Source of the DNA: Pseudobutyrivibrio ruminis AD2017 | GTDB lineage: Bacteria; Bacillota; Clostridia; Lachnospirales; Lachnospiraceae | Length of the DNA stretch: 64,000 nt | Reading direction: 5' to 3' | NCBI RefSeq assembly: GCF_000424305.1 | Contig: NZ_AUJQ01000004.1 | Span: forward strand, 124,001-188,000 | In this document: piece after piece, positions 18,284 through 43,952 of the stretch | Position numbering within the stretch: the first letter of the stretch is position 1 | How the letters are laid out: the number at the start of each line of letters is the position of its first letter | Translations under genes and position numbers: made by a program | Notes under the pieces: generated by a model | Database searches by the model: none | What the model saw: the letters and a program-made list of their open reading frames with translations, nothing else | What the model was told of the DNA's origin: nothing

Positions 18284-18409
18284 GGCGTTTCCTTTCTTTG
18301 GTATTTGCTGTTGTATTATGGGGATGGGATGTAAAAAGTGGGTAAAACGGGAGTCGAAACGATTGAGTAAACCCTAAACGATTTTCCCATCATATCAACT
18401 CACTTACTG

Positions 18410-18452
18410 CTGCACCAGCAAAATATCCACGATAGAACAGCATATTGGCAAT
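18410..18452 (-). pseudogene. 43-bp relic resembling the GT4 glycosyltransferase gene at 31856-31898
   Basis: 40 of 43 bases match positions 31856-31898 in the same orientation. Read on the minus strand it encodes IANMLFYRGYFAGA, the same peptide as in the intact glycosyltransferase. Similarity stops abruptly at both ends. The right boundary coincides with the stop codon of the PIN-like gene at 18452, so it looks like a breakpoint left when the three-gene module arrived. It cannot be expressed as a useful protein. Confidence 0.65.
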
Positions 18453-29351: not shown

Positions 29352-29792
29352 TTAAAGCATTGATATTTTCTTGTTCTTCGTAATTACCTTACAATAGGTA
29401 CCGTTTACGCTTATTGCTCCTATCAGTTTTAATAAAAAGGTTTCTGAAATATCTTCGGATATTTCAATTCTGGCATTACCACAGACGATTGAGGCTACGC
29501 CATGAGTTGCCGGCTTAAGCGCCTCTGCAGGTGATGGTAATTCAACAAATGTTTGAACTGGTAACTGAGGTTGCTGCTGTTTTATTAATTCTTGACTATT
29601 TGTTTGTTGAAGTTCATCCATGTAATACTCTTGTACCTTATGGAGATGATCATAAAATGTAGGTGCCTTTATACCTTTCAGGGAGCACCATTCCCTAACG
29701 GTCATTCCCTCTGGTCTTGAATTGTATTCTTGAACCTCAGCAAACCATTGTTGATAACGAAGCTCTTTCTTCAGTTGAGCTGACTTATTCAT
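29352..29792 (-). CDS. tnpA: IS66-type TnpA (accessory Orf1)
   Basis: This protein of about 146 residues starts at the ATG at 29792, preceded by GGAGG; the longer in-frame opening to 29825 lacks a site. It has the pattern of IS66 Orf1/TnpA: an N-terminal helix-turn-helix region with QQWFAEVQEYNSRPEGMTVREWCSLKGIKAPTFYDHLHKVQ, and a short conserved C-terminal strand block (ASIVCGNARIEISEDISETFLLKLIGAI). In a full IS66 it would be followed by tnpB and the large tnpC transposase. These are missing, because the sequence diverges at the tnpA stop codon into two unrelated genes. It is thus an orphan of a truncated element. Confidence 0.75.
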   Translation of the reverse strand: MNKSAQLKKELRYQQWFAEVQEYNSRPEGMTVREWCSLKGIKAPTFYDHLHKVQEYYMDELQQTNSQELIKQQQPQLPVQTFVELPSPAEALKPATHGVASIVCGNARIEISEDISETFLLKLIGAISVNGTYCKVITKNKKISML

Positions 29793-29917
29793 AAAGATAC
29801 CTCCTATATGTCGGGCACTATACATAGTCTACATACTATGTAAATAACCCATAGTTTATATATAGGATTATCTCAACTATATAAACTGGTACGAGGTACC
29901 CACTATTTAACGTTTAC
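29352..29917 (-). mobile_element. Left part of a truncated IS66 element
   Basis: The segment spans the tnpA gene and about 125 bp upstream to a probable terminal repeat starting GTAAACGTTAAA at 29917 on the minus strand, followed by TGGGTACC. That end resembles the 41-bp relic at 20886-20926. The right half (tnpB, tnpC, right repeat) is absent. The rest of the spacer to 30006 has no gene; it contains an echo of the 3' end of the acyltransferase gene (GAGCATnTAAAnATnGAA) as a weak direct repeat. Confidence 0.6.
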
Positions 29918-30006: not shown

Positions 30007-31062
30007 TTATTCACTTTTTTGAGCATCTAAACATCGAATTTTACTACATATATATAATCTAGATTGATCTATCAATAATGCTCCGCAAAAAACTAATATC
30101 ACCTTACATAACAAGTGAACAGTAAACATAGTTTTAGAATAATAGTTAATATTTGGCGAAAATCTCTTCCATATTATTTCTCGGACTATTGGATTATCAT
30201 GGATAATATATATTGCCAAGACGGATTGTGAAATCTTATTAACTGTTCTACTATAAAATTCGAATTTATTGGCATATAAAAATATTAATAAAGGATAAAA
30301 AAAGCCAACCAAAGGAAATAAAAAATTCATTATAGTACTATTTGTATCTGATGAATGTATCATGCTTATCTGATTTCCCAAAACCAAGAACCCCATAACT
30401 AGAATAGAAAGTATAACTACAATGGTAAAAATATTTTTCTTACTCCACCAGTTGTTAGTTCCATATTTTTTTAAGTACCCTCCCCACAGATACATTATAA
30501 ATAAGCCTTCCACTGAACATTGTATATTCATACCTGTATAAAATCTAAATCCCGGTAATATAAATCCAAAGGTAGAAAGGATTATTAATAGATTTCGATA
30601 CTCTTTTTCGCTTATAATACTTATCCCTTTATTAACATTAGGTATAATAAGTAAAAGTATAATATAGCAGGTTATAAACCAATTACCACTAGTCCATATA
30701 TCAGTAATTCTCTTTCCAATTTCTATATCCCAGCCATTTCTTGCCATGAAAAGCAATGCCAAAATTATAAAAACCAAAATATACCCTATATACTCTATGA
30801 GTATTCTTTTTATCTTTTTTACATTACTAGCTGTCTTATTTATCAAAAAGTATCCCGAAATAACTGCAAATGTTCCATTTCCAATTATACCTACAAAATG
30901 CAATATCTGTATTAAATATACATTTATCCACATATCTACCGCTAGCATCTGTTGTTTTTCTGAAAAGCACGCTTCTACCCCATGGTAACAATAATGATGC
31001 GCTATAATCAAAAACATCATCACTATTCTTAATAATTCTATTGAAGAATTTCTCTTCTCCAT
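30007..31062 (-). CDS. Acyltransferase-3 family membrane O-acyltransferase
   Basis: This 351-aa protein has about ten transmembrane helices and the family start, RNSSIELLRIVMMFLIIAHHYCYHG, with the His pair in helix 1 expected for acyl transfer. It would add acetyl or another acyl group to a sugar of the polymer. The start at 31062 is the first codon after a run of nine G (minus strand), preceded by an out-of-frame ATG at 31075. This makes the gene a candidate for slipped-strand control. It is the last gene of the glycosyltransferase / epimerase / Ugd group. The acyl group and target sugar are unknown. Confidence 0.83.
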   Translation of the reverse strand: MEKRNSSIELLRIVMMFLIIAHHYCYHGVEACFSEKQQMLAVDMWINVYLIQILHFVGIIGNGTFAVISGYFLINKTASNVKKIKRILIEYIGYILVFIILALLFMARNGWDIEIGKRITDIWTSGNWFITCYIILLLIIPNVNKGISIISEKEYRNLLIILSTFGFILPGFRFYTGMNIQCSVEGLFIMYLWGGYLKKYGTNNWWSKKNIFTIVVILSILVMGFLVLGNQISMIHSSDTNSTIMNFLFPLVGFFYPLLIFLYANKFEFYSRTVNKISQSVLAIYIIHDNPIVREIIWKRFSPNINYYSKTMFTVHLLCKVILVFCGALLIDQSRLYICSKIRCLDAQKSE

Positions 31063-31064
31063 AA

Positions 31065-31073
31065 CCCCCCCCC
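31065..31073. repeat. Nine-C (minus strand G9) homopolymer at the acyltransferase start
   Basis: Nine C on the plus strand read as G9 on the coding strand, three bases before the acyltransferase ATG. An upstream ATG at 31075-31073 reads through the tract. With G9 it is out of frame with the acyltransferase; with one G fewer (or two more) it would be in frame (M-G-G-V-M-E-K). It also replaces a normal ribosome-binding site, so its length should affect translation. Confidence 0.85.
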
Positions 31074-31166
31074 ATTTTTTTACGTATAATTATTGTCTTC
31101 TCCGTAACATTATAGTATTTTTTGCATTCAAAAAGCTATTTAATAAAACAGCTTTTTTATCTAAAT

Positions 31167-32252
31167 CTAATTTGTCCCATACACAATCCCTTCATACTCT
31201 TCCACAGTCCTCTTAGCCACAACACCCCAATCATATTTCTTGCTGAGCTGATAGGCATTATCTGATAACAAGCCCAAGTTATTCCTATTGCAGTATGCTT
31301 CCTTCAAGCAATTTAGAATAGATTCTGCATTTAGCTCTGGGACATAGCCACAATCAGCTGCCAGCACATCCTCGGCTAGGCCGGTTTCTTTAGATACAAT
31401 GACAGGGAGGCCTAGTGAGAAGGCTTCGAGAATACCGGATGGCATGCCTTCCCAACGAGAGACCTGAATAAACATATCGGAAGCTAGCAGTGCTTCAGTC
31501 TTGTCATGTCCATAGATTCCTTCAGCATTAAGAGAAATAATGTCTTCCACCCCACTAGTAGAAATAAGCTCACTCACAGCAGCGGCGCCGCCTTTGTAAT
31601 CTGCGCCGTACAAATCAATCCTGATATTATTCGACGCAAAGAATTCCTTATCAAGAGCAACTGCCTCAATCAACAAATCCAATCCCTTTTGCATTGGTGT
31701 GATTCGTCCGATGTAAATGATTGAAAAATCCTCACCACTATTTACCGTGTAAGGCTTTGTGTCAGGCACTGAAATACCATTTGGTATAATTAAATGCTTT
31801 TTATTGTAATGAATCGAACCATTGTATTCAGCTGCAGACAGATACTGAACAGCTTCTGCACCAGCAAAATACCCACGATAAAACAGCATGTTGGCAATAG
31901 TTTTTTTGATATGCGACTTCTTTTGACTAACCCTCATGAGGCCACCGTGAGGAATTGTCACATATTTATACTTTCCCTTTACATGCTTCAAATAATATCT
32001 TAGTAATCGTACTGAATAAACATCATGAATGACAATGATATCTGGCTTATCAAATCCACCCTCTAAATCGCTGATAGCTTCATCCAATCCTATATTCCTG
32101 TAGCTTCCTGCCGTTGGCACTACCACTTCACTATTCACATTCAGCAAAAGAACATCCGCCCATTTGGACTGATGTTCCACATACTTAGGTACTATTACAG
32201 ATACCCCACTATTCTTTCTGTTTGTGATATCGCATAAATGTATTATCTTCAT
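31167..32252 (-). CDS. GT4-family (GT-B fold) glycosyltransferase
   Basis: This protein of 361 residues starts at 32252 (MKIIHLCDITNRKNSGVSVIVPKYVEHQ). The in-frame extension to 32333 overlaps the upstream gene and lacks family character. The C-terminal donor domain has IIYIGRITPMQKGLDLLIEAV and the E-x7-E motif in RWEGMPSGILEAFSLGLPVIVSKETG, as in GT4 retaining glycosyltransferases. It acts on lipid-linked repeat units at the inner membrane face using a nucleotide sugar. It lies 10 bp after the GT2 gene in the same operon. A 43-bp piece of this gene recurs as a relic at 18410-18452. Confidence 0.88.
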   Translation of the reverse strand: MKIIHLCDITNRKNSGVSVIVPKYVEHQSKWADVLLLNVNSEVVVPTAGSYRNIGLDEAISDLEGGFDKPDIIVIHDVYSVRLLRYYLKHVKGKYKYVTIPHGGLMRVSQKKSHIKKTIANMLFYRGYFAGAEAVQYLSAAEYNGSIHYNKKHLIIPNGISVPDTKPYTVNSGEDFSIIYIGRITPMQKGLDLLIEAVALDKEFFASNNIRIDLYGADYKGGAAAVSELISTSGVEDIISLNAEGIYGHDKTEALLASDMFIQVSRWEGMPSGILEAFSLGLPVIVSKETGLAEDVLAADCGYVPELNAESILNCLKEAYCNRNNLGLLSDNAYQLSKKYDWGVVAKRTVEEYEGIVYGTN

Positions 32253-32262
32253 AACATACCCT

Positions 32263-33069
32263 TTATCGCAAAATCTTTTTATAAACAAACTTCTGCACTG
32301 ATTCTGGCATGATATACATACCCATCTGTGCAATAAAAACCATCAAAAAATCGCCAAACGAATTAAAGCCTGACTTCCAAGCCTTATATCTGATTTCGAT
32401 TAAAATCTTTGTGTTAATCCAAGATTTTCTCTTGCGATATGTACCTTCGTCAAATCTGAATCTAAACACATGCTCCTTTAGGTTAGCACATACTGCACCT
32501 GCGCTAAGCAGCTTAATCCACAGATCCGTATCCTGATTCTTTCGATAATCGGAATAGCAACCAACAGATTCTACTTTAGATTTGCGATACATAACTGTCG
32601 GATGATTAAATGGATCACGCCTTCTTGCAAAAGTGTAGATGTCTTCATTAGTGTATGGCACATCCCTAACACCTACAATATTATCAATATCACCCACGAA
32701 TTCATCAACTGGGCAGCCAATGATATCCAATGATGGATTAGCCTCAAATTCCTTCAGTTCAAGTTCACAACGATTTGGCATAGAGAAATCATCAGAATCC
32801 ATTCTAGCAATCAGCTCGTTGCTGCAGTATTTAATGCCCTCATTAAGAGCCTTGCCCAACCCCTGATTCACTTCAAGCTGAACTTGAACGATGTTTGCCT
32901 TGGCAGCATACTTGTTGATAACCTGCTCCAAAGCATCTGGCACTGGTCCATCTTTAACGATAACTATCTCATTTGGCTTAACAGTTTGATTGACCATACT
33001 GCCTAAGCTCAAATCAAAATAATCTGGATTATCATTTTTATAAACTGTCATTAAAACTGAATATTGCAA
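32263..33069 (-). CDS. GT2-family glycosyltransferase (AmsE/WcaA-like)
   Basis: This 268-aa protein has a GT-A fold with MQYSVLMTVYKNDNPDYFDLSLGSMVNQT at the N-terminus and the metal-binding IARMDSDDFSMPNRCELE block near residue 90. Also present are the RRDPFNHPTVMYRKS acceptor-side motif and QDTDLWIKLLSAG. These are typical of AmsE/WcaA-type exopolysaccharide glycosyltransferases. The start is TTG, placed directly after the TAA of the epimerase gene, with GAGGAA eight bases upstream, so translation is coupled. It adds one sugar of the repeat unit, of unknown identity. Confidence 0.88.
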   Translation of the reverse strand: MQYSVLMTVYKNDNPDYFDLSLGSMVNQTVKPNEIVIVKDGPVPDALEQVINKYAAKANIVQVQLEVNQGLGKALNEGIKYCSNELIARMDSDDFSMPNRCELELKEFEANPSLDIIGCPVDEFVGDIDNIVGVRDVPYTNEDIYTFARRRDPFNHPTVMYRKSKVESVGCYSDYRKNQDTDLWIKLLSAGAVCANLKEHVFRFRFDEGTYRKRKSWINTKILIEIRYKAWKSGFNSFGDFLMVFIAQMGMYIMPESVQKFVYKKILR

Positions 33070-34164
33070 TTATTTTTCCTCGATATTATAAAAATCTTTG
33101 TACCACTGAGCGAACTTACGTAATCCATCGCGAAGTGGTGTATCAGGCTTGAAACCAAAATCTCTTTCAAGTGCTGATGTATCAGCATAAGTGATAGGAA
33201 CATCACCAGGTTGCATCGGAACTAATTCCTTGTGACTTTCAAAATCATAGTCTTCTGGAAGTACATGCGCTCTTACCAGCTCTTCTTGAAGAATTGTAAC
33301 AAAATCCAAAAGATTTTCTGGATTGTTATTTCCAATATTGTAGATTGCATAAGGTGGTACTGGAAGGCCATCTTCACCAGTAACACGCTCTGGCGCCTTT
33401 TTCATCACGCGTTCAATACCATCTACAATATCATCAATATAGGTAAAATCACGCTTGCAATTACCATAATTGAAAATCTTGATAGTCTCACCATTCAGAA
33501 GCTTGTTGGTAAAACCAAAATATGCCATATCTGGTCTGCCTGCTGGACCATAAACCGTGAAAAATCTTAATCCTGTACATGGGATATTATAAAGCTTAGC
33601 ATAGGCATGAGCCATAAGCTCATCGCTCTTTTTGGTAGCAGCATACAATGAAACAGGATTGTCTACCTTGTCATCAGTGCTATATGGGACCTTTTTATTG
33701 GTGCCATATACAGATGAAGATGATGCATATACCAAATGTTCTACGCCCTTTGCGCCATCATCGTATGAATGTCTACAAGCCTCTATGATGTTATAAAAAC
33801 CAATAAGATTGCTCTTAATATAAGCATCTGGATTGATGATAGAATACCTAACACCTGCCTGGGCTGCAAGATTCACAACAATATCAGGCTTGTATTCAGC
33901 GAAAAGACCGGTGATTGTATCCTTATCTGATATATCACCCTTAACAAACGTCCACGAAGAATCGTTATGCTTTGCAATAGTCTTTTCTATTTCCTGCAAA
34001 CGCCATTCCTTGATGGATACGTCATAGTAGTCATTAAGATTATCAATACCTATTATTTTTATTTGTTCATTGTTACCTAATAACTGCATAACAAGATTGC
34101 TGCCGATAAAACCAGCAGCACCTGTTACTAGGATTGTTTTATTGTTAAGATTTGTTAATTCCAT
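33070..34164 (-). CDS. NAD-dependent UDP-sugar epimerase, UDP-glucuronate 4-epimerase type
   Basis: This is an extended SDR of about 364 residues. The ATG at 34164, eight bases from AAGG, is preferred over the one at 34170. It has TGAAGFIGSNLVMQLL near residue 15, DNLNDYYDVSIKEWRLQEIEK, catalytic SSSSVYG and YAATKKSDEL (Tyr-x-x-x-Lys), and RFFTVYGPAGRPDMAYFGF. These match UDP-glucuronate 4-epimerases (LpsL/Cap1J) more than GalE. It would convert UDP-GlcA from the adjacent Ugd into UDP-GalA. The gene follows ugd by 68 bp and abuts the GT2 gene. A UDP-xylose or UDP-Glc epimerase is a less likely alternative. Confidence 0.87.
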   Translation of the reverse strand: MELTNLNNKTILVTGAAGFIGSNLVMQLLGNNEQIKIIGIDNLNDYYDVSIKEWRLQEIEKTIAKHNDSSWTFVKGDISDKDTITGLFAEYKPDIVVNLAAQAGVRYSIINPDAYIKSNLIGFYNIIEACRHSYDDGAKGVEHLVYASSSSVYGTNKKVPYSTDDKVDNPVSLYAATKKSDELMAHAYAKLYNIPCTGLRFFTVYGPAGRPDMAYFGFTNKLLNGETIKIFNYGNCKRDFTYIDDIVDGIERVMKKAPERVTGEDGLPVPPYAIYNIGNNNPENLLDFVTILQEELVRAHVLPEDYDFESHKELVPMQPGDVPITYADTSALERDFGFKPDTPLRDGLRKFAQWYKDFYNIEEK

Positions 34165-34231
34165 AATCATTACCTTATATTTCTACTGTATTTAACGAAT
34201 ACGATTATATCAAACTAAGCATAAAAAAGCA

Positions 34232-35488
34232 CTAATCCCTACAATAAATATCCCTCGTATATACCTTATCCTTTACATCCTCAAGACAATCATCGTATCT
34301 ATTAGCAACGATACACTTACTCAACTTCTTGAACTCATCTAAATCATTAACTATCTTGCTACCAAAGAAAGTATCTCCATCATTAAGAGTTGGCTCATAA
34401 ACTATTACAGTTGCTCCTTTGGCTTTGATGCGTTTCATTATTCCCTGAATAGAACTTTGGCGGAAGTTGTCAGAATTACTCTTCATTGTAAGACGATATA
34501 CTCCAATGACTACTTCTTTTTCTTTGGTTTCGTCCCAAGATGAATTTGGACCGTAGGCCCCAGCCATTTCCAACACTCTATCTGCGATGAAATCCTTACG
34601 TGTCCTATTGGATTGCACTATAGCAGACATCATTTCCTGTGGTACATCGTTATAATTAGCCAACAGCTGCTTAGTATCCTTTGGCAAACAATATCCTCCG
34701 TAGCCAAACGATGGGTTATTATAATGACTTCCTATTCTAGGATCTAGACAAACGCCACTGATTATATCCTGAGTACTCAATCCCTTCATTTCAGCATACG
34801 TATCTAATTCATTAAAGTAAGAAACTCTAAGTGCAAGATATGTATTAGCAAAAAGCTTTACAGCTTCGGCTTCAGTAAATCCCATAAACAATACGTCAAT
34901 ATCTTCTTTAATAGCGCCTTCCTCTAGTAGACTTGCAAATGTATGAGCTGCAGCAACCAGTTTTTTATTGCGCTTATCCGTACCTACAATAATACGTGAA
35001 GGATAAAGATTGTCATATAGGGCCTTAGATTCTCTTAAGAATTCCGGACTAAAGATGATATTCTCAGTATTATATTTCTCACGAACATATTTGGTATAAC
35101 CAACAGGAATAGTGCTCTTAATAATCATGATAGCATCGGCATTGTTTCTTAAGACCTGTTCTATTACACTTTCTACTGCAGATGTATCGAAATGATTCAA
35201 CTTGCTGTCGTAATTTGTTGGAGCAGCAATGATAACAAAATCTGCATTTTTATATGCACTGTCGCCATCACATGTAGCCACCAAATCCAATTCTTTCTCC
35301 GCTAAATATTTTTCAATATAATCGTCCTGAATAGGTGATTTCTTTTTATTTATAAGATCTACTTTCTCTGGTATGATATCCACAGCTGTGACGCAGTTGT
35401 TTTGTGCAAGCAGAACAGCAAGGCTCAATCCAACATAGCCCGTTCCTGCAACTGCAATATTATATTTATTTTCATTACCTTTTAACAT
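34232..35488 (-). CDS. ugd: UDP-glucose 6-dehydrogenase
   Basis: This 418-aa enzyme has an N-terminal Rossmann domain ([20 protein letters not shown]) and the substrate/oxidation block [11 protein letters not shown] with [23 protein letters not shown]. The catalytic cysteine is in [15 protein letters not shown] (about residue 260), and the UDP-binding domain is at the C-terminus. It oxidises UDP-glucose to UDP-glucuronate with two NAD+. It probably supplies the epimerase directly downstream. It is the first gene of the group, with 164 bp of upstream non-coding DNA that contains copy A of the direct repeat flanking the defence-like cassette. Confidence 0.93.
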
Positions 35489-35580
35489 TTCTTAATCTCC
35501 CTCAAATTGATTTATTTCACGTTTTTCCACTTCAATCCAACCTAAATTTATTTATTTTCTTTTTTTGACAATCCTGTGTG

Positions 35581-35658
35581 TTTTCTCCAATGACATTTCC
35601 AATTATACCTGAAGAAAAATATCGAAAAGATTGTCATGATTACTTCATATATTTATAT
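35581..35658. repeat. Imperfect direct repeat, copy A, right after the DUF262/ATPase/HNH cassette
   Basis: About 75 bp starting TTTTCTCCAATGACATTTCC match copy B at 38637-38715 with roughly four substitutions or indels in the first 70 bases. Copy B is the 3' end of a membrane-protein gene, while copy A codes for nothing. The HNH stop codon (35653-35655) lies in the outer part of the match. The pair brackets the three-gene cassette. Confidence 0.85.
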
Positions 35659-36480
35659 TCTACCTGTAATCAATCCACATTTATAAATAAATTCACATAA
35701 CATTACTAATTTGTCATCTGTCAGTTCCTTAGTTTTTTCTATAAATAATGGCACTATATAATTATCATACTTATCTTTCATATTTCGACTCGAATAATCA
35801 TTTATCATATCCTTACAAAAGCGGTAAATTTCATTAGTGCGCTCTCCAACGTCATTAAGATGAAAATAATTAATATGATCAACAATAAATTTTCTTTCTT
35901 CATTTGTATATTGTATAGAGGAATCAGGATAAAACAAACCATCAATCAGATCATATTCAATATTTAATGGGTTACCTCCTATAGAGTCAACCTTACATTC
36001 TTTGACAACAGAATCGTAAGGTTGAAGTATAATGTGCCCATATTCACCTCTGTAATATCTGTCCCTCAATCTCATATATGCAGGACACATACTTGTGCAA
36101 CTATCATAATTGCAGTTTGCAGCCAAATAATCTTTATACTCGATAGTATTAACAATACTTTTTATTCTTAAAGACTCATATTTCTTTTTATATTTTGTAT
36201 TACATACTGGACAGGTTATTGATATGTTCATACGACACATTGCAAGTTTAGTGCCATTTTTAGATTTTTCAATGCTATGCTCCAAATTAGAAAAAGTTTT
36301 TGTATCTACTTTTATTCTAATAAAGCAATACATGCAATACCCTCTACTTGCTTCTAATAATTTTTGTCTCATTAACATCTTTGATTTAGGTGTCGTATAT
36401 CCAGCTCCATCCATTGATTTGTAATTTACAAGATAGTTATCTATTTTTAGATGGAGATAATCCTTTTTCAATTTCCCCAT
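35653..36480 (-). CDS. HNH endonuclease, PtuB/TIGR02646-like
   Basis: This 275-aa protein contains a zinc-stabilised HNH fold. It has CMYC at residues 49-52, LEH with His68, Asn85 in MNISITCPVCN, the second CxxC at 90-93, Asn94 and a Lys-rich helix. This C-C/EH/N/CxxCN-K spacing resembles PtuB of Septu and the TIGR02646 nucleases. A second Cys group (NYDSCTSMC) and a GHIILQPYD segment follow. Its start overlaps the ATPase gene by 44 bp with a good ribosome-binding site (GGAGG). I infer it to be the effector nuclease of the cassette. Confidence 0.72.
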   Translation of the reverse strand: MGKLKKDYLHLKIDNYLVNYKSMDGAGYTTPKSKMLMRQKLLEASRGYCMYCFIRIKVDTKTFSNLEHSIEKSKNGTKLAMCRMNISITCPVCNTKYKKKYESLRIKSIVNTIEYKDYLAANCNYDSCTSMCPAYMRLRDRYYRGEYGHIILQPYDSVVKECKVDSIGGNPLNIEYDLIDGLFYPDSSIQYTNEERKFIVDHINYFHLNDVGERTNEIYRFCKDMINDYSSRNMKDKYDNYIVPLFIEKTKELTDDKLVMLCEFIYKCGLITGRI

Positions 36481-37405
36481 ATATAAACACCTCCAACCTT
36501 GTCATTTTTGCTATATCAAGATTACAAAATGCTTCAATGTCATCATCGCTAAAGCAATTCGACATCATGTGGTTATATAATAATTTTAGTAAATTTAAAT
36601 CTCCTTCAGTATCATCTTCATTACCTTGCATCGCAACTTTTTTCCAAATATTTTCTGCTTTACCTAAATTGTCAATATCATCAGCATCATATGTATAATA
36701 ATTGTCTTCTGAAATAGCAACAATCATCGCATTATTTGTGCCAACAACAATATCTTTGGAATGAGTAGTTATGATAAATTTAAAACTATCAAATTTCTCC
36801 ACAAGATAATTCAAAAAGTTAATACATATTTCAGCAGAAAGATGCAAGTCTATTTCATCAATTAAAACAATTATCTCTTCGTTAGTATTATTCTTCAATA
36901 TTAATAATTCCAACAATATTCGCATTATAGCTTGTAGTCCATTAGATAATCGAACAATGTCATTTATTTCTAGCCCATCTATTACTAAGACTATCTCTTC
37001 ATTGATATTATCAATATTACGTTGTTGAATTGATAGCGTTTTTCCAGTCACATCTTTAAATAACAATTCTAAATCTTGTCTATAATTCAAAAATTGCCGT
37101 CCTATATTTCCAGTATAACTACCAAACGTGTCTATTGCATTTATATTTTTTGTATGTTTTCTATTCTGAAGTATATCTATAATGTCCACCTGAATATTAT
37201 CTGGCTCTAAAGATATTTCTTTCACCTCTATATACCTATTAGGTGTATCGATGAAATACACATTTGAAGAAAAGTTATTTATTAAATGAATAAATAAATC
37301 TGTTTTACCACTAAAATTTTCACCAATAATTATTATATTTTTATTCTTTGGTAAAGTATCTGTAATAAATTCAATTATCTTATCTATTTTCTTTTCGTAT
37401 TGCAT
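36437..37405 (-). CDS. ABC/SMC-type AAA ATPase (PtuA-like)
   Basis: This 322-aa ATPase has Walker A GENFSGKT at 28-35 and an ABC signature LSNGLQ at 153-158. Walker B IIVLIDEIDLHL has Asp183 and Glu184, and the switch His215 lies in ITTHSKDI. No long coiled coil is present, so it is shorter than most OLD or Rad50-like ATPases; PtuA of Septu is the closest functional analogy. It overlaps the DUF262 gene by 26 bp and the HNH gene by 44 bp, which implies one translation unit. Its likely role is sensing and ATP-dependent control of the HNH nuclease. Confidence 0.78.
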   Translation of the reverse strand: MQYEKKIDKIIEFITDTLPKNKNIIIIGENFSGKTDLFIHLINNFSSNVYFIDTPNRYIEVKEISLEPDNIQVDIIDILQNRKHTKNINAIDTFGSYTGNIGRQFLNYRQDLELLFKDVTGKTLSIQQRNIDNINEEIVLVIDGLEINDIVRLSNGLQAIMRILLELLILKNNTNEEIIVLIDEIDLHLSAEICINFLNYLVEKFDSFKFIITTHSKDIVVGTNNAMIVAISEDNYYTYDADDIDNLGKAENIWKKVAMQGNEDDTEGDLNLLKLLYNHMMSNCFSDDDIEAFCNLDIAKMTRLEVFIYGEIEKGLSPSKNR

Positions 37406-38528
37406 CTGTTATTATTTCTATCCTTTGTTCAATTGCTTTAGTCTTTGAAACTGCTCTATCAAGACTTTTTATATAATTATCCTTAGATATAGCCTCATTA
37501 ATATTATTAACATTGACATTACAATCAAAGTTTAAAAGCACCTCTGCCAGATACAACGCTTCCCATAGAACAAAACTTTTTTCGATTCTATCTGGCATAT
37601 AATCTATAAACTTTATCAGCTGACTTTTATATCTTTCAACTGTTTGCTCATTAAAATTTATTGATTCCTTTGAAAACTCGTTTAATAGGCGCGTATAGTT
37701 TTTAAAAGGTCTTATTTCAACTTTACCATCAGCATGATTCATTTGATGTTCCATAGCACATAGACGCAACAAAAATTCAATATCTTTAGCCTCTTTATTT
37801 TCTGCTCCAAACATCCGTCTCCACTTTGAATTTTTATTCATTTGATCAAGCATCTCATAAAATGGTGAAACAAATATTCCATTTCTTAATTCCTGTGGTG
37901 ATAGAGGTGCACCTCCCGAATTTAAATTAGCAAAAATCTTATATATATTCTGTAGCTTATTATCCAAATCTCCAAATACAATTTCAACTACTGTGATAGT
38001 TGTAAAATCAACTTTTGTCTTTAATGACTCTTCCAATGTTGAATAAGTAATATCTTTTACTTCCTCCCTTAGTTTTCCTTCTACATTTCTCATGTATTTC
38101 ATCTTATACTTATGCTCAACTGTTATTTTAGGGTCATTCAATACATCCATAATGCTTTGATTTTTTAGATTAAGATGCGCATTATATGTATTTCTTAGCT
38201 TTTTATCATGATAATATAATAGCAAACTTATTATTCTTTGCTGTCCATCAAGTATCTGAAATTTTCCATCTTCATTTTTATAAGTATAAATTGGTGGGAT
38301 GGGCATACCACGAACCAATGAAGCTGCTAATTCTTCCACCTGATTGGTTTTCCACCTATAAGCTCTCTGAAATTTAGGTACCAAAAAAATACCTTGCTCC
38401 ACTCCTTGCATAAGCGTCTTAAATCCCATATCTGTTTTATAGCTTTGTATGGTTATATTTGAAAAGACTTCTTCATTTTCTTCACTTAAATATTCTTCAT
38501 CTATAAACTCCATATTATTTTCGACCAT
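37380..38528 (-). CDS. DUF262 (ParB/Srx-like, GmrS-like) domain protein
   Basis: This 382-aa protein has the DUF262 core at residues 48-105: VPKFQRAYRWKTNQVEELAASLVRGMPIPPIYTY and the catalytic-type DGQQR at 94-98. The C-terminal part is helical with no DUF1524 HNH domain, so it is not a complete GmrSD-type protein. DUF262 domains hydrolyse NTPs or sense modified DNA in type IV-like systems. Here the nuclease function seems moved to a separate HNH gene with an ATPase between them. It is the first gene of the cassette, and copy B of the direct repeat lies about 110 bp upstream. Confidence 0.83.
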   Translation of the reverse strand: MVENNMEFIDEEYLSEENEEVFSNITIQSYKTDMGFKTLMQGVEQGIFLVPKFQRAYRWKTNQVEELAASLVRGMPIPPIYTYKNEDGKFQILDGQQRIISLLLYYHDKKLRNTYNAHLNLKNQSIMDVLNDPKITVEHKYKMKYMRNVEGKLREEVKDITYSTLEESLKTKVDFTTITVVEIVFGDLDNKLQNIYKIFANLNSGGAPLSPQELRNGIFVSPFYEMLDQMNKNSKWRRMFGAENKEAKDIEFLLRLCAMEHQMNHADGKVEIRPFKNYTRLLNEFSKESINFNEQTVERYKSQLIKFIDYMPDRIEKSFVLWEALYLAEVLLNFDCNVNVNNINEAISKDNYIKSLDRAVSKTKAIEQRIEIITDAIRKENR

Positions 38529-38623
38529 ATTTACAAATCCACCTTCCTAATGTTTTATACCTCATATAATAATTGAATTTTCCAATTTAAACTTTCATGC
38601 TTATTTTGATTAATTCTCTGTCC

Positions 38624-39682
38624 TCATTCGCGTCTTTTTTCTCCAATGACCTTTCCAATTATACCTGAAAAAAATATCGAAAAGATTGTCATGATTACTC
38701 CATCTATATTTGTAAATAGAAATGACGCCAACCCATTAGAAACATTAATATTGTCTATTTTAACCGTTGGGTATTTGCCTGCTACATTTAGTGGTATAGA
38801 TGCTTCAGAATCATATTTAAAAATCAAATCATTATTGTGGTCATCTATTACAACAGTTTGAGCACCAACAACATAATCCATTTGCTTTGAAGACCTAGTA
38901 AGAACTAGTCGATCTTTGCCTGGTATCATTTCAACACTTAACTCTGATATATTGCCATCCAATGTAAGGCTTGCCGAATTTTGCAATGGTATCATTGCGT
39001 AATTCATCGAGTTTATATAAAATGATGCAGACATGCTCGGATTAACAATCTCGATTTCAGAATTATTTGACTGTATCACATCATCTCCAATAATAATTAA
39101 AAAATTCCCTGTTAATTTAAACTTTTCATTTTTTTGCACTTGAAATATACTATTAAAAATTGGATTATATAGCTTAATCCAAACAATATCCTCATTTTTT
39201 CCAGACGTCATTTTATGAAGGAATGACTCGCTATCACCATGATTGGTAATCTCAATAGTGTCTGCAGCAAAAGAATACTCTGATGAAATATTCATGTCAT
39301 AATATAGCCCTTTTCCTTTACATAAAATACTATTATTTAATAAACCGCTTCCATTACCGCTATTAAATACAATACGCATTTTTCCTGGATTAGCACAATA
39401 TTCTTTCGAATCAATCAAGACTTTTATTTTTTCTCTATTTACTATTGTTCCCTGATTGATAAATAAGCCATTACAGCTGAATGCTGCATCACCCCGGTAA
39501 TTTGTAATCGTTAATATATTTGGTTCTCCTTGCAAAACAACCGATGAATGTTTTACATCATAAACGTATGTAGCTATTATAAATATAACAACTACTATCA
39601 CCATAATACTTAACGTTTTCTGCATTGTTAAATTTTTTAATAATTTTATGCCAGAAGTAAAGCTACTATTTATTTTTTTCAT
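38624..39682 (-). CDS. Membrane protein with extracytoplasmic domain, function unknown
   Basis: This 352-aa protein has a transmembrane helix at residues 22-42 and another near 325-345 (VIMTIFSIFFSGIIGKVIGEK). The large beta-rich domain between them probably lies outside the cell. No family was recognised. It is separated from the rest of the second locus by the DUF262 cassette on one side and an IS66 fragment on the other. Its last 25 codons overlap copy B of the direct repeat, so the inserted cassette seems to have recreated or kept this 3' end. Link to polysaccharide synthesis is by position only. Confidence 0.55.
   Translation of the reverse strand: MKKINSSFTSGIKLLKNLTMQKTLSIMVIVVVIFIIATYVYDVKHSSVVLQGEPNILTITNYRGDAAFSCNGLFINQGTIVNREKIKVLIDSKEYCANPGKMRIVFNSGNGSGLLNNSILCKGKGLYYDMNISSEYSFAADTIEITNHGDSESFLHKMTSGKNEDIVWIKLYNPIFNSIFQVQKNEKFKLTGNFLIIIGDDVIQSNNSEIEIVNPSMSASFYINSMNYAMIPLQNSASLTLDGNISELSVEMIPGKDRLVLTRSSKQMDYVVGAQTVVIDDHNNDLIFKYDSEASIPLNVAGKYPTVKIDNINVSNGLASFLFTNIDGVIMTIFSIFFSGIIGKVIGEKRRE
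38637..38715. repeat. Imperfect direct repeat, copy B, within the 3' end of the membrane-protein gene
   Basis: Starting TTTTCTCCAATGACCTTTCC, this is the partner of copy A (35581-35658) in the same orientation. The distance between the copies is about 3.06 kb and the unique DNA between them is the three-gene cassette. Copy B is coding (end of the gene 38624-39682). Confidence 0.85.
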
Positions 39683-39774
39683 TTAACTCCCCATTTTATA
39701 TTTATCAACTATCGTCTTCTGCACAAACAACTATAATCTTACAATTTCCTTGTTGTAATTGTATCTAATACAAA

Positions 39775-39894
39775 TCAGTTCACTTTGTCCTCTATCACAA
39801 CAGCAACAAATACCCCAAAAACTATAAGAATAAATGAAAATACAACAAAACTTTGTAAACTAGATTTTATTGCTGCATCAACTGGTACCAAAGT
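39775..39894 (-). pseudogene. C-terminal remnant of a membrane-protein gene
   Basis: Read on the minus strand, the fragment encodes LVPVDAAIKSSLQSFVVFSF followed by a hydrophobic run ILIVFGVFVAVV and VIEDKVN, then a TGA. It is a final transmembrane helix and tail without the rest of its gene. The upstream boundary coincides with the start of the IS66-like fragment (GTAAG at 39895), so the insertion cut the gene. The DNA from 39683 to 39774 shows nothing identifiable. Confidence 0.55.
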
Positions 39895-40080
39895 AAGCCC
39901 TCAATCACTCGTAACTTACAATTCTACCACACTCATGAGATGATTACCCCAAATACATTTTAGGGAGGACTTCTCATGAACACATCTAAAGTTATTCATC
40001 AAGCAAAACTCAACGACTGGGCTAACACCATTCGTGAGCAACAAGCTAGTTCACTCAATGTTACTGAGTGGTGTCAGTCA
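39895..40080 (+). mobile_element. IS66 fragment with truncated tnpA
   Basis: GTAAG at 39895 may be the terminal repeat. An ATG at 39976 with AGGGAGG upstream encodes MNTSKVIHQAKLNDWANTIR, EQQASSLNVTEWC and then QS, an IS66 TnpA N-terminus comparable with the one at 29792 (W..., EWC). Homology ends at about 40077, where the GtrA gene begins on the other strand. The element is a short, inactive relic. Confidence 0.6.
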
Positions 40081-40490
40081 ATCTTCTCTATTACTCCCTT
40101 CATTACAAAGAAATTCAACACCATAGTAAATGGTGTAATAAATATTTTTGCAATTATACCTGAAAACTTTACAACAAGCGGCCATGTGATATTAGCAACT
40201 ATAATGCCATCAACAAAGCCTAAAACCTTAGATGCTAATGATATTAGTAAAAACTGATAAACTATGTATATTACATATTTGGCCCATAGTGGTATATTGC
40301 TATTACTTTTAAATACCTTCCTGGTAGCAAAGATGAAAACAAATGTTACGCCAACCCATGAGCTGATAAAATTATTAATGCTGTGATTCGCAGAGACAAA
40401 TCCCAGTAAAATGAATATACAAAAATCTAATACCCAGCCTATGCCACTCAGACCCACAAATTTAATGGCCTGAATTAATAATTTCCTCAT
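40074..40490 (-). CDS. GtrA-family membrane protein
   Basis: This 138-aa protein with four transmembrane helices has the GtrA pattern KFVGLSGIGWVLDFCIFILL and WPLVVKFSGIIAKIFITPFTMVLNFFVMKGVI. GtrA-like proteins help to flip polyprenyl-phosphate-linked sugars. Its last codons and the stop lie in the IS66 fragment, so the original C-terminus has probably been replaced by a few unrelated residues. The fold is still complete. It is the last gene of a minus-strand run beginning near 48.9 kb. It likely serves the GT-C type enzymes of the same run. Confidence 0.83.
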   Translation of the reverse strand: MRKLLIQAIKFVGLSGIGWVLDFCIFILLGFVSANHSINNFISSWVGVTFVFIFATRKVFKSNSNIPLWAKYVIYIVYQFLLISLASKVLGFVDGIIVANITWPLVVKFSGIIAKIFITPFTMVLNFFVMKGVIEKID

Positions 40491-40508
40491 TTATAAACAA
40501 ATTCTCCT

Positions 40509-41237
40509 TTATTCATTAAGAAAAGCCTGAAGCTCCTCAGGTGTTCCTAACACATGCACTCTCTCAGGTGCTATATCCGAAATGTATATCTCGCCTCCCT
40601 TTGATAACAAATAATCATAGAGAGGAGCAACATATTTCTCACCATTAACAAGCTCTATATCCTTGCTGTAATATTCGTTATACAAATCCTCGTATAAACC
40701 ACAGGTTTTAAAATAATAAGCGCCAAGTGTGCAATAATTAGATATACGCTTCTTTTCCTTTATTTCTACAACCTTGCCTGTTTCATCCAAACGAACGAAG
40801 CTCCAGTGGTCTCCTTCAGCTTGGAAGCAAGGAATGAAACCATCTCCCTTAAGCTCTGCAGAATTCATCTCTCCTGCTTCAACGTATGTATCAATATTGT
40901 AGATAAGCAATGCGTTGTTTCTATCCCAGAACTGAGCAGCCTTCATGGCTGTAGTGGCCTGTCCATCTGTAAGATAATCCAAAACGATTACATGATAATT
41001 ATTAATGCCAAGCTCTTCGCACTTTTTACTAATGAAAGCTTCCACATCAGCATTATCATCCTTCATAGCTATGAACACATACTGATTTACATCAGCCTTA
41101 TAGCCCTCAAGGCTGATTAAAGACCATTCAAATAAGGTCTTTCCTTTGGCCTCTATCATGTATTTAGGCAAGTTGTAACCCATTTTTCTAAAACGAGAGC
41201 CAAGTCCCCCCATTGTGATAACTACATCTATCTTCCC
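40509..41237 (-). CDS. Sugar nucleotidyltransferase-like enzyme
   Basis: This protein of about 242 residues starts at 41237, where GGGAGGAA lies eight bases before MGKIDVVITMGGLGSRFRKMGYNLPKYMIEAKGK. The in-frame extension to 41279 is less likely because it overlaps the upstream gene. GGLGSRF and LPKYM are the nucleotide and Lys-containing motifs of NTP-transferase (GlmU/RmlA-like) enzymes. It would activate a phosphorylated small molecule as its NDP or CDP form. With a HAD phosphatase and a kinase-like protein directly upstream, it forms a three-gene set, suggesting a dedicated activated substituent. The substrate is unknown. Confidence 0.8.
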   Translation of the reverse strand, partial: GKIDVVITMGGLGSRFRKMGYNLPKYMIEAKGKTLFEWSLISLEGYKADVNQYVFIAMKDDNADVEAFISKKCEELGINNYHVIVLDYLTDGQATTAMKAAQFWDRNNALLIYNIDTYVEAGEMNSAELKGDGFIPCFQAEGDHWSFVRLDETGKVVEIKEKKRISNYCTLGAYYFKTCGLYEDLYNEYYSKDIELVNGEKYVAPLYDYLLSKGGEIYISDIAPERVHVLGTPEELQAFLNE

Positions 41238-41244
41238 CATAGCT

Positions 41245-41649
41245 TTATTCCTCCCCATTGTGTAAGCGTGACTTTTCACATATCTCAGCTAATTCTTCTG
41301 GTGTGTGATTTAAGAATTCATCTGGTCTAACTGACCTATCATCTACATAAAATCCCTTTGGTCCTGGCCAAACCTTTCCAAATACTATTTCATCGTAAGG
41401 AATGTCCCATTTAGCAAGCCATTCATTCAATACAGCCGCTGTGTATTTGTTTATAAGGCCAAGATTTCCATTGTAGGTTTTCATGTTACGTGATGTATAA
41501 AGAACGATTTTAGCGCCATTATCCTTATAATACTTAAGCTTTTCTACCATATCTGGATATGGAACCAAATCCTCATAACGCTCATCCTTTTTCTTTATAG
41601 GACACAGTGTTCCATCAATATCAAAAACAAAAGAGTAATCCTTAAACAT
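41245..41649 (-). CDS. HAD-family phosphatase (capsule-type, 134 aa)
   Basis: This is a short HAD-like protein with motif I VFDIDGTLCPIKK (Asp10 and Asp12) and motif II LYTSRNM, then a YVDDRSVRP block that places the acidic metal ligands near residue 106. It has no large cap domain. Small HAD enzymes of this type occur in capsule loci. It overlaps the kinase-like gene upstream by 8 bp and lies 7 bp before the nucleotidyltransferase, consistent with a joint pathway of phosphorylation, dephosphorylation and activation. Confidence 0.8.
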   Translation of the reverse strand: MFKDYSFVFDIDGTLCPIKKKDERYEDLVPYPDMVEKLKYYKDNGAKIVLYTSRNMKTYNGNLGLINKYTAAVLNEWLAKWDIPYDEIVFGKVWPGPKGFYVDDRSVRPDEFLNHTPEELAEICEKSRLHNGEE

Positions 41650-43096
41650 CTAACTCTATCTCCTTTAAAATCCTATCTGCATTCAATATAAATCCTAGCA
41701 CTTTGTGAGGATTATCTATGTGTAATGGCAACATTGATATAAACAATGAAGCCTCGTAGATTCTAACTGTCAGATAATCAAATCCATTTTCCTCTACCTT
41801 AGATTTGAATATCTGCATATATTCGGAATTATCAAATGGTATTTCCAAATCATAAGTGAAATCTTCAGCGATTCTTATATCAAACAATCCGTTGTTGAAG
41901 AAATCGTATTTGCCACAAACCGAATGGCTAAGCTTTGCTACATCATAATATGGGTTAGTCCATAAGTCTGATTCTACACTAGCTCCCTTAGGATCGATGA
42001 ACTTTAACATCTGTGTAGATTTATTATATAAAGCATTGGCAAAGCATGGGTCACCGTGACCTATTACCATTTCTGGCCTGTAATTGTTTTTAGCTTCTAT
42101 CTTATCTTTTAATGATAAATATCTTGAAACTATGCTATCAATATTTACATCTCCAATAGATGATAACAATGCTTCGATATTTTTGTACTGTGGAAGCTGC
42201 TTTAAATCATTGATACGGCTTTGAACCTTATCCACATACAATGTATCTGCAGTTTTTTGATATTCTTCCTTAGTGCATTCCTTTGTATGTCTGCATTTAA
42301 AGAAGAAGAAATATTTGTCCATCAATGCTTCAAATTCTGATTTGTCCATGGAACCATGAACCCATTTGATAGCCAAATCGGTCATGTGCAATCTTTCCAT
42401 GGTGTAGCTAGCTTTGTCATCGTCCTCTTTGTAATCAAATGGCATTACAAACCAGTATTTCATATCATCTGGAAGAAGATGATAGAAATCGTATTCAGCC
42501 TTTATCTTCTTTTTGTTAGTAGAAGATTTAACCAAGGTGTATTCATTTCCTTTTAGGCTGTTAAAATATCTGGAATCAAAATTGCCTGTTACACACTGGA
42601 TGAAATTGGAAATAAGACCAATATCTACCATGCCAACGATTTGGAAGTTGGCATCTATTTCTTTAACTAAATCCCAAGCCTTGCGACCAGAGATAATATT
42701 CTTGCAGAATGATACATAGCTGTCTAAATTTGGGAACATAGCAGCAACAGCTCTGTTTCCATCAAAGGCAGCATAAGGTTCATCTATATATGATAATTTT
42801 TCAAATGATAATCTGGCTGCTTCTGCATCAGAAACGATATAGTTTGAAAAGCAATGAAGTACCCATACATCTTGAGAATTGTATACGTCCAGCTGCTTTA
42901 ACAAATCAGCGTATTCGAAAACAGAATGAACCTTTTTCCAAACTACATCTGAAAAAATATTGTTCATTTCATCATGATAGTATTCTTCTAAGCAACGCTT
43001 TTTAACCACTACATCTGCGAAGCCTTTGTCACCGATAATATCTGCAATTACTTCACTTTTGCGTCCTGTATCATCATATACTATTAATGTCTTCAT
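41642..43096 (-). CDS. APH/choline-kinase-like phosphotransferase with N-terminal extra domain
   Basis: This protein of about 484 residues starts at 43096 with GAGGAAATAAT upstream. The C-terminal half carries an aminoglycoside-phosphotransferase-like motif: MVIGHGDPCFANALYNKSTQMLKFIDPKGA (HGD-x-x-x-x-N catalytic loop, then the DPKG metal-binding segment). The N-terminal 250 residues are unassigned and may bind a substrate (MKTLIVYDDTGRKSEVIADIIGDKGF resembles a nucleotide-binding start). It overlaps the HAD gene by 8 bp. It probably phosphorylates a sugar alcohol, choline-like or similar small molecule for the polymer; this is an inference. Confidence 0.62.
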   Translation of the reverse strand: MKTLIVYDDTGRKSEVIADIIGDKGFADVVVKKRCLEEYYHDEMNNIFSDVVWKKVHSVFEYADLLKQLDVYNSQDVWVLHCFSNYIVSDAEAARLSFEKLSYIDEPYAAFDGNRAVAAMFPNLDSYVSFCKNIISGRKAWDLVKEIDANFQIVGMVDIGLISNFIQCVTGNFDSRYFNSLKGNEYTLVKSSTNKKKIKAEYDFYHLLPDDMKYWFVMPFDYKEDDDKASYTMERLHMTDLAIKWVHGSMDKSEFEALMDKYFFFFKCRHTKECTKEEYQKTADTLYVDKVQSRINDLKQLPQYKNIEALLSSIGDVNIDSIVSRYLSLKDKIEAKNNYRPEMVIGHGDPCFANALYNKSTQMLKFIDPKGASVESDLWTNPYYDVAKLSHSVCGKYDFFNNGLFDIRIAEDFTYDLEIPFDNSEYMQIFKSKVEENGFDYLTVRIYEASLFISMLPLHIDNPHKVLGFILNADRILKEIELDV

Positions 43097-43097
43097 A

Positions 43098-43952
43098 TTA
43101 TTTCCTCTCAATTATGGAATCACGAATCTTTACAACCAAATACAATATAATCATAAGTACTACGCTTATAAATATAAAATGCTTTAGCTCTACTGACTGA
43201 GCTTTGCTTAGTGCTGATAGTAAGTATTCTGAGATTGTTGCGTTAATATATCTGTCTTTAGTAAGACTGGCAATAGCTGCAACACTGCCTATTTCGATAG
43301 CCCATGCTAGTAATGATAGTACGTACAAAATAATGCCACGGCCTCTAGATACATTTACTATTTCTACATATACTTTGTTAAGGTTATCTAGGAATTTAAG
43401 AGCCTTCAGCTTTCTAGGTGATGCATCTGCCTGTAGTAAATATTTTTTCCAATATTTATATATACCTGGCAACGCCATAAATAATACACCTGCGGCTACT
43501 ATAAAGATTAGTAGGAAGTAAACTATAGGCATTATGACCCCACCGTTAACTACCCATACCAGGAAAATCATAGTGACAAGTGCTACCGTATCCATAAATC
43601 TATCAAGGATAACTGTGACTACGCCCTTCAGCATATTGTTAATGGTGGCACCGTAACAGTACATTCTGAATAGTTCGCCTAATTTGAAAGGGAACAGAAT
43701 GCTGATTGGTGTAACCTTACAATAGGTTTTAATATAATCAGGGCCTGTAATATCAGCGCCATACAAGGCTATATATAAACGAATGGCCTTTAGAGAATGG
43801 ACTAGCACAACTGCCAAAATAGTAATAATTATTGGCAGCATTCCCATTCCATCAAAGACCTGATTATTAATATAATTAAAAACAAAAATTAGTGCTGCCG
43901 CTAGCAACACTAATATGTTTATCAAATTATATATAAATGATTTTTGTTTCAT
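43098..43952 (-). CDS. Lysylphosphatidylglycerol-synthase-type transmembrane protein (UPF0104-like)
   Basis: This 284-aa protein has seven or eight helices. The core motif YCKVTPISILFPFKLGELFRMYCYG followed by ILDRFMDTVALVTMIFLVW is that of the LPG_synthase_TM / UPF0104 family, usually described as flippase-like or AglD-like membrane domains. Here the family member lacks a soluble transferase domain. Its stop codon is one base before the ATG of the kinase-like gene, so expression is coupled. It may move a lipid-linked intermediate. No direct evidence shows the substrate. Confidence 0.78.
   Translation of the reverse strand: MKQKSFIYNLINILVLLAAALIFVFNYINNQVFDGMGMLPIIITILAVVLVHSLKAIRLYIALYGADITGPDYIKTYCKVTPISILFPFKLGELFRMYCYGATINNMLKGVVTVILDRFMDTVALVTMIFLVWVVNGGVIMPIVYFLLIFIVAAGVLFMALPGIYKYWKKYLLQADASPRKLKALKFLDNLNKVYVEIVNVSRGRGIILYVLSLLAWAIEIGSVAAIASLTKDRYINATISEYLLSALSKAQSVELKHFIFISVVLMIILYLVVKIRDSIIERK

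Follow-up and report, generated by a model that had tools for sequence, protein, structure and literature searches.

The 64,000-nucleotide stretch of Pseudobutyrivibrio ruminis AD2017 DNA analyzed here (contig NZ_AUJQ01000004.1, positions 124,001 to 188,000; hereafter the window) carries a compact three-gene cassette that is, in our assessment, very probably the Menshen anti-phage system NsnA-NsnB-NsnC. The three window genes, each of full length, retain the conserved residues; the system is real, intact and conserved. The PADLOC output shows the symbols NsnA, NsnB and NsnC only, and we take them to denote the Menshen proteins; on that footing the suggestion of a preliminary description of this DNA, that the system was undescribed, gives way to an existing name. 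The trio is ordinary in kind, a named system and not a new one, because PADLOC profiles for NsnA, NsnB and NsnC exist and because a review (PMC10952713) gives PD-T4-2, Menshen and Dazbog as systems with DUF262 and without DUF1524, attributing Menshen to Millman et al. (2022). Read from 38528 to 35653 on the minus strand, the three open reading frames overlap by 26 base pairs (A/B) and 44 base pairs (B/C), as the preliminary description had it:

37380..38528, minus strand: nsnA, DUF262 (GmrSD_N) protein of 382 amino acids with DGQQR at residues 94-98 (Pfam, PADLOC, alignment)
36437..37405, minus strand: nsnB, small ABC-type ATPase of 322 amino acids (PADLOC, AlphaFold model, Foldseek)
35653..36480, minus strand: nsnC, predicted HNH nuclease of 275 amino acids (PADLOC, conserved HNH residues; Pfam HNH below cutoff)

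Profile identity and conservation

Profile identity is shown for the outer two proteins. NsnA matches the Pfam family GmrSD_N (DUF262) with an E-value of 1.7e-32 and the PADLOC NsnA profile with 5.3e-45 (residues 15-379 on profile positions 32-381 of 385), and NsnC matches the PADLOC NsnC profile with 1.3e-91 (residues 6-270 on positions 2-250 of 255), its score against Pfam HNH being sub-threshold (18.9 bits, cutoff 21.4). The pairing of a DUF262 gene as first partner with no DUF1524, remarked on earlier, is borne out, as none of NsnA, NsnB and NsnC has a Pfam match to DUF1524 at E<=0.1. In the PDB, sequence searches returned no structure of the three proteins themselves; what matched were weak relatives of PtuA and DUF262 type, among them the DUF262 protein 7p9k for NsnA (0.00066). 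PD-T4-2 was rejected as a name for the system, NsnA matching the PADLOC PD-T4-2_A profile at 3.1e-27 versus 5.3e-45 for the NsnA profile.

Co-occurrence of the three genes in other genomes, on which the preliminary description had staked its proposal, was found. An NsnC alignment search over one genome per species yielded 21 loci, five or more of them at places already found previously, and three protein profiles refined on these same 21 loci were used to read gene order. Eighteen of the 21 have the genes in the order A-B-C; of the other three, two (L027, L033) end at a contig end inside nsnB and one (L039) is an nsnC remnant. Not all of the 18 are whole: in L024 the contig stops within nsnA, L030 and L031 have a split nsnB, and L037 has a split nsnC. 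L017, a locus outside the 21, holds truncated pieces of nsnA, nsnB and nsnC. The broken copies (L030, L031, L037, L017 and L039) suggest that Menshen is frequently lost. Leaving the L039 remnant aside, the DUF262 gene is present in the window and in all 18 other loci whose sequence extends far enough. Moreover, over 15 sets in which all three genes are unsplit (the window and some close relatives included), pairwise distances for the three proteins correlate with r of 0.98-0.99, and none of 2000 permutations gave values as high; because the distances co-diverge, we take nsnA, nsnB and nsnC to be inherited as one unit. As judged from sequence, the earlier view of a conserved three-gene cassette of anti-phage type thus holds.

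The distribution is narrow. NsnC has matches in 7 of the 299 genomes searched from its family (the window's own among them), in one of the 7 through fragments only. A search of 398 genomes across the phylum with the PADLOC NsnC profile matched the window's genome alone, which suggests that the system is rare outside Lachnospiraceae. A scan of genome contigs with the single NsnB protein as query confirmed no relative, and NsnC searches of plasmid and phage records and of viral contigs gave no match at their sensitivity. As to neighbors, a relative (48-51% identity) of a TOTE conflict-system protein lies directly after nsnC at two distinct Menshen loci, L013/L022 and L016/L038; the window's own 977-amino-acid TOTE protein (AEP-TOTE at 5.7e-74, with helicase and PLD-like domains) is encoded at 23417-26350 on the minus strand.

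Conserved residues, the NsnB model and the predicted mode of action

The motifs listed in the preliminary description all lie where it placed them and are conserved. In NsnA, DGQQR (D94-G-Q-Q-R98) is invariant in 6 of 6 sequences. NsnB carries GENFSGKT at 28-35, LSNGLQ at 153-158, the Walker B pair D183-E184 and H215; invariant here (16/16) are G33 and K34 of Walker A, S154 of the signature, D183, E184 and the switch histidine H215. The NsnC motif, C49xxC52...E67-H68...N85...C90xxC93-N94, combines CxxC, His68 and CxxCN, and C49, C52, E67-H68, N85, C90, C93 and N94 are the same in 17 of 17 sequences.

NsnB is the divergent middle member. Its Pfam matches are to ATPases and sub-threshold only, the NCBIfam PtuA model gives 36.9 bits (cutoff 500), and four of its relatives match the PADLOC NsnB profile at 2.8e-10 to 4.1e-18. 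The AlphaFold model of NsnB (16 sequences, mean predicted local distance difference test score, pLDDT, of 80) is helical from residue 247 onward, and its top 39 Foldseek matches in the PDB all come from PtuA/PtuB complexes, of Septu or of retrons (best 2.4e-09), with which PDB sequence searches agree. At the level of the model, NsnB is shown to have a PtuA-like fold. The resemblance of the last two genes to Septu, claimed in the preliminary description, is seen for NsnB in this modeled form; NsnC is far from the PtuB profiles. The review describes a Menshen component as a predicted OLD/TOPRIM nuclease (PMC10952713). Since the PADLOC NsnB profile is just 345 positions long, we suspect that this label came from ATPase similarity, and OLD/TOPRIM is doubtful as a defining feature of the Menshen family.

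With respect to function, a 2026 review places Menshen among largely uncharacterised systems (PMC12926258), and for Menshen and Dazbog loss of phage resistance on mutation or deletion of the DUF262 gene is on record (PMC10952713). In Septu, immunity is lost when the PtuA Walker motifs or PtuB H75/N91 are mutated, and tRNA-Tyr is a substrate that the complex cleaves (PMC13096335). In our own mapping, these essential residues would correspond to NsnB K34 and D183/E184 and to NsnC H68 and N85, and by this analogy we infer that NsnB and NsnC may work like PtuA and PtuB. We hold with good confidence that NsnC is an HNH effector, and lean slightly toward NsnA being a sensor. In the mechanism that we propose, NsnA would act as a DUF262 nucleotide-binding sensor or switch responding to infection; NsnB, a PtuA-like ATPase, would oligomerise, keep the nuclease inactive and couple the nucleotide state to its release; and NsnC, once released, would cleave nucleic acid, candidate substrates being phage or host DNA, or tRNA as for Septu and retron-Eco7 PtuAB. 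Such cleavage would probably stop the infected cell.

Several observations weigh against the Menshen assignment and what is built on it. The match of NsnB to the PADLOC NsnB profile (4.9e-11) spans residues 124-233 only, about 110 residues, and several PADLOC PtuA profiles score higher (best 4.2e-17, partial); among its four relatives, the best PADLOC profile is NsnB in L014, PtuA in L012 and L013, and mad8 in L016. No TOPRIM was found in NsnB, either by Pfam or in the AlphaFold model, set against the OLD/TOPRIM component of the review, and the Foldseek matches to PtuA/PtuB chains have low template modeling scores (0.29-0.47; for the top 39, 0.32-0.47 over the query) and high root-mean-square deviations. 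With a pLDDT of 71 the NsnC model is only moderately reliable, and it finds no PDB match by Foldseek at E<=0.001 (best 0.14); the 20 matches listed comprise 5 chains of PtuA/PtuB complexes, 2 of endonuclease VII, 1 Cas5-HNH complex and 12 that are seemingly unrelated. Co-divergence is a sign of shared inheritance, not proof of shared function, and the low guanine-plus-cytosine (GC) content of the cassette, detailed below, is weak evidence of import. Furthermore, literature searches brought up no paper containing any two of the terms NsnA, NsnB, NsnC and Menshen, and no phage assay of these relatives.

The same NsnB scores (4.2e-17 on PtuA versus 4.9e-11 on NsnB), the resemblance of its model to PtuA and the weak PtuB matches of NsnC could be taken to mean that the ATPase and HNH genes form a Septu (PtuAB) system to which the DUF262 gene is accessory, either riding along as a passenger or supplying an added sensor. 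We consider this improbable: the best PADLOC PtuB match of NsnC (1.4e-07) covers a partial stretch and is 84 orders of magnitude behind the NsnC profile, NCBIfam PtuB gives 18.7 bits (cutoff 150), and the DUF262 gene comes first in all 18 loci with the three genes and co-diverges with nsnB and nsnC, which argues against a passenger. As a class, Septu was rejected on the PtuB partner (1.4e-07 versus 1.3e-91) and on the presence of the DUF262 gene. Very improbable indeed is a split type IV restriction system of the GmrSD/BrxU type that cuts modified DNA, to which the GmrSD_N domain of NsnA (1.7e-32) and its weak match to 7p9k would point; the three proteins lack a DUF1524 match, the nuclease is an NsnC-type HNH protein, and in the 18 loci the ATPase gene sits between the DUF262 and nuclease genes. 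GmrSD/BrxU was likewise rejected as a class, DUF262 being present but DUF1524 giving no match.

We also consider it quite improbable that the cassette is a nonfunctional relic in decay. The duplicated gene end beside it (see below) is frameshifted and the five relatives named above are broken, but the window's own three open reading frames are full length with their conserved residues.

Gene-end repeats and islands in relatives

The surroundings of nsnABC are a gene cluster of polysaccharide type, where the cassette adjoins the 3' end of a gene for a membrane protein. The layout runs intact membrane-protein gene, nsnABC, displaced gene end, next gene. The flanking features are:

38529..38623, minus strand: spacer upstream of nsnA, presumed promoter location (position only)
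38624..39682, minus strand: membrane-protein-like open reading frame of 352 amino acids, an orphan with duplicated 3' end (no profile match; own genome only)
38637..38714, minus strand: upstream repeat copy, the in-frame 3' end of the membrane-protein gene (own-genome search, alignment)
35581..35657, minus strand: downstream repeat copy, a displaced gene end frameshifted by a 1-nucleotide indel (own-genome search, alignment)

The direct repeats bounding the cassette, already seen in the preliminary description, are real: they span about 79 base pairs (35581-35657 versus 38637-38714) and share 92% identity (E=2.6e-25 when searched against the strain's own genome). The downstream copy, whose start coincides with the nsnC stop codon, does not have the frame needed to end the membrane-protein gene. 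This layout is what insertion at the 3' end of a gene, with provision of a replacement end, would leave. Pfam, PADLOC and NCBIfam gave nothing for the 352-amino-acid frame at E<=0.1; it was found in its own genome only, both among 61 relatives and among the 299 family genomes, and viral contigs gave no match. A whole-window scan (seed 13) found two direct-repeat families of at least 40 nucleotides, one being the cassette repeat; the other is a 46-nucleotide direct repeat, 91% identical, at 18407-18452 and 31853-31898, 13.4 kb apart. A promoter scan of 35400-38800 gave 17 matches, fewer than in shuffled sequence (mean 24.4).

The cassette was probably acquired horizontally. Its block has 26-30% GC, as against 36-40% at 31000-34999 and 34-38% at 39800-43799. 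Low GC alone is no proof of import, since AT-rich sequence also occurs in the adjoining 39000-39799 (29%) and in many window genes between 44.8 and 63.4 kb (28-34%). Elsewhere in the window, a 717-amino-acid KAP-family NTPase (12588-14741, minus strand) has 30% GC amid genes of 39-41% and is a possible import. The short open reading frames 39976-40257 (plus strand) and 29352-29825 (minus strand) resemble accessory genes of IS66-type insertion sequences; the latter has no Pfam match.

Flanking repeats were found in 3 of 17 other Menshen loci tested (L025, L028, L029). As a general Menshen trait they were rejected, 14 of the 17 having none at E<=1e-4 (upstream flanks being short in L034 and L020). 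In the three positive loci, a nucleoside-recognition (Gate) membrane protein gene, presumably spmA, or a copy of its 3' end precedes the cassette, and a further partial copy follows nsnC. The spmA-like protein matches Pfam Gate under the cutoff (1.3e-05 in L028, 0.00012 in L029) and has no NCBIfam match. In L027, whose contig starts inside nsnB, the downstream copy alone is visible, and in L031 the upstream gene alone. Rfam gave no family at the gathering threshold in L025, L028, L029 or L031.

Just before the displaced copy, L025, L027, L028 and L029 share a conserved right-end sequence around GTGTCATTAACTTGACACAA. When up to 3 mismatches are allowed, its 23-nucleotide form is present in 9 of the 348 family genomes scanned and the reversed control in 3, including the window's genome, while a 20-nucleotide form occurs in 4 of the 5 genomes with these Menshen loci. 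In the window the motif was not found at up to 4 substitutions, and the window's genome has none at up to 3 mismatches, yet has one match to the reversed control. Among 21 motif loci fetched, 11 run on into the same spmA-like gene, five of them in or beside Menshen loci; nine junctions lie near codon 115-117, in L059 the match starts 85 bases on (codon 122), and in L068 the junction is at codon 169. Motif variants in L074 and L078, which are among the regions of the cargo proteins described below, are located outside the spmA-like gene, and L073 shows an insertion in eno; the island family as a whole comprises L025, L027, L028, L029 and L048-L078.

Three serine recombinases stand beside the motif in 3 of 10 wider regions, one on the contig of the Menshen locus L025 (Pfam was run on all three proteins of L075 and on one of L073, L070 being judged by sequence starts); one recombinase that was tested gives 1.7e-26 against CcrB, well short of the cutoff for that model. 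Of ten cargo proteins compared with PADLOC, seven match at 1e-5 or better and three have no match: five have matches of the types AbiL-like, PDC-S05, RdrA, RdrB and PDC-M28, one matches restriction- or helicase-type models only, and one has only a weak PDC-S31 match. The window cassette itself has no recombinase and no spmA-like right end. Literature searches brought up no paper on an spmA-like island among the top titles and abstract starts. Serine-integrase triplets that insert within genes are documented for streptococcal integrative and conjugative elements (ICEs) (PMC4701971).

Drawing these strands together, one could picture the Lachnospiraceae Menshen as a distinct subtype, with a PtuA-like ATPase instead of OLD/TOPRIM and a DUF262-gated, possibly tRNA-cutting HNH effector, borne on a cassette with no recombinase of its own that inserts into membrane-protein genes at their 3' ends and gives the host gene a replacement end, by way of serine-triplet islands at the spmA-like gene in relatives and by another route in the window. 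In its entirety this picture is speculative, and we think it rather unlikely to hold in every part.

Significance and comparison with known systems

The naming removes one candidate from the list of 'new' defense systems. In return, the present analysis adds a map of conserved residues for the largely uncharacterised Menshen, which points to a PtuAB-like mode of action. Furthermore, the gene-end duplication in the window and three relatives suggests a way in which such small cassettes may travel, and the islands at the spmA-like gene are a place to seek further defense genes in Lachnospiraceae.

Among mobile elements, the islands of the relatives, not the window, share serine recombinases with staphylococcal cassette chromosome (SCC) cassettes and serine-triplet ICEs but differ from them in targeting an spmA-like gene and in a cargo that includes defense genes. 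PD-T4-2 has a DUF262 protein similar to NsnA, whereas no other PD-T4-2 model is among the matches listed for NsnC or the best 25 of 54 for NsnB. With GmrSD, BrxU and SspE the cassette has in common a DUF262 domain with the DGQQR nucleotide-binding motif; those systems, unlike it, have a fused or partnered DUF1524 nuclease, and the review excerpt mentions no PtuA-like ATPase for them (PMC10952713). Septu and retron PtuAB resemble it in the modeled PtuA-like ATPase fold and in an HNH partner whose catalytic residues form a similar pattern under our H75/N91 mapping, whereas Septu, as described in the excerpt of PMC13096335, has two genes and no DUF262 subunit, and NsnC is far from the PtuB profiles. 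From Menshen as portrayed so far the window departs in an NsnB that diverges from the PADLOC profile and in which no TOPRIM was found, against the OLD/TOPRIM component given in the excerpt of the review (PMC10952713); it shares with Menshen a DUF262 protein, an ATPase and NsnC in one cassette, with near full-length matches for NsnA and NsnC and no DUF1524.

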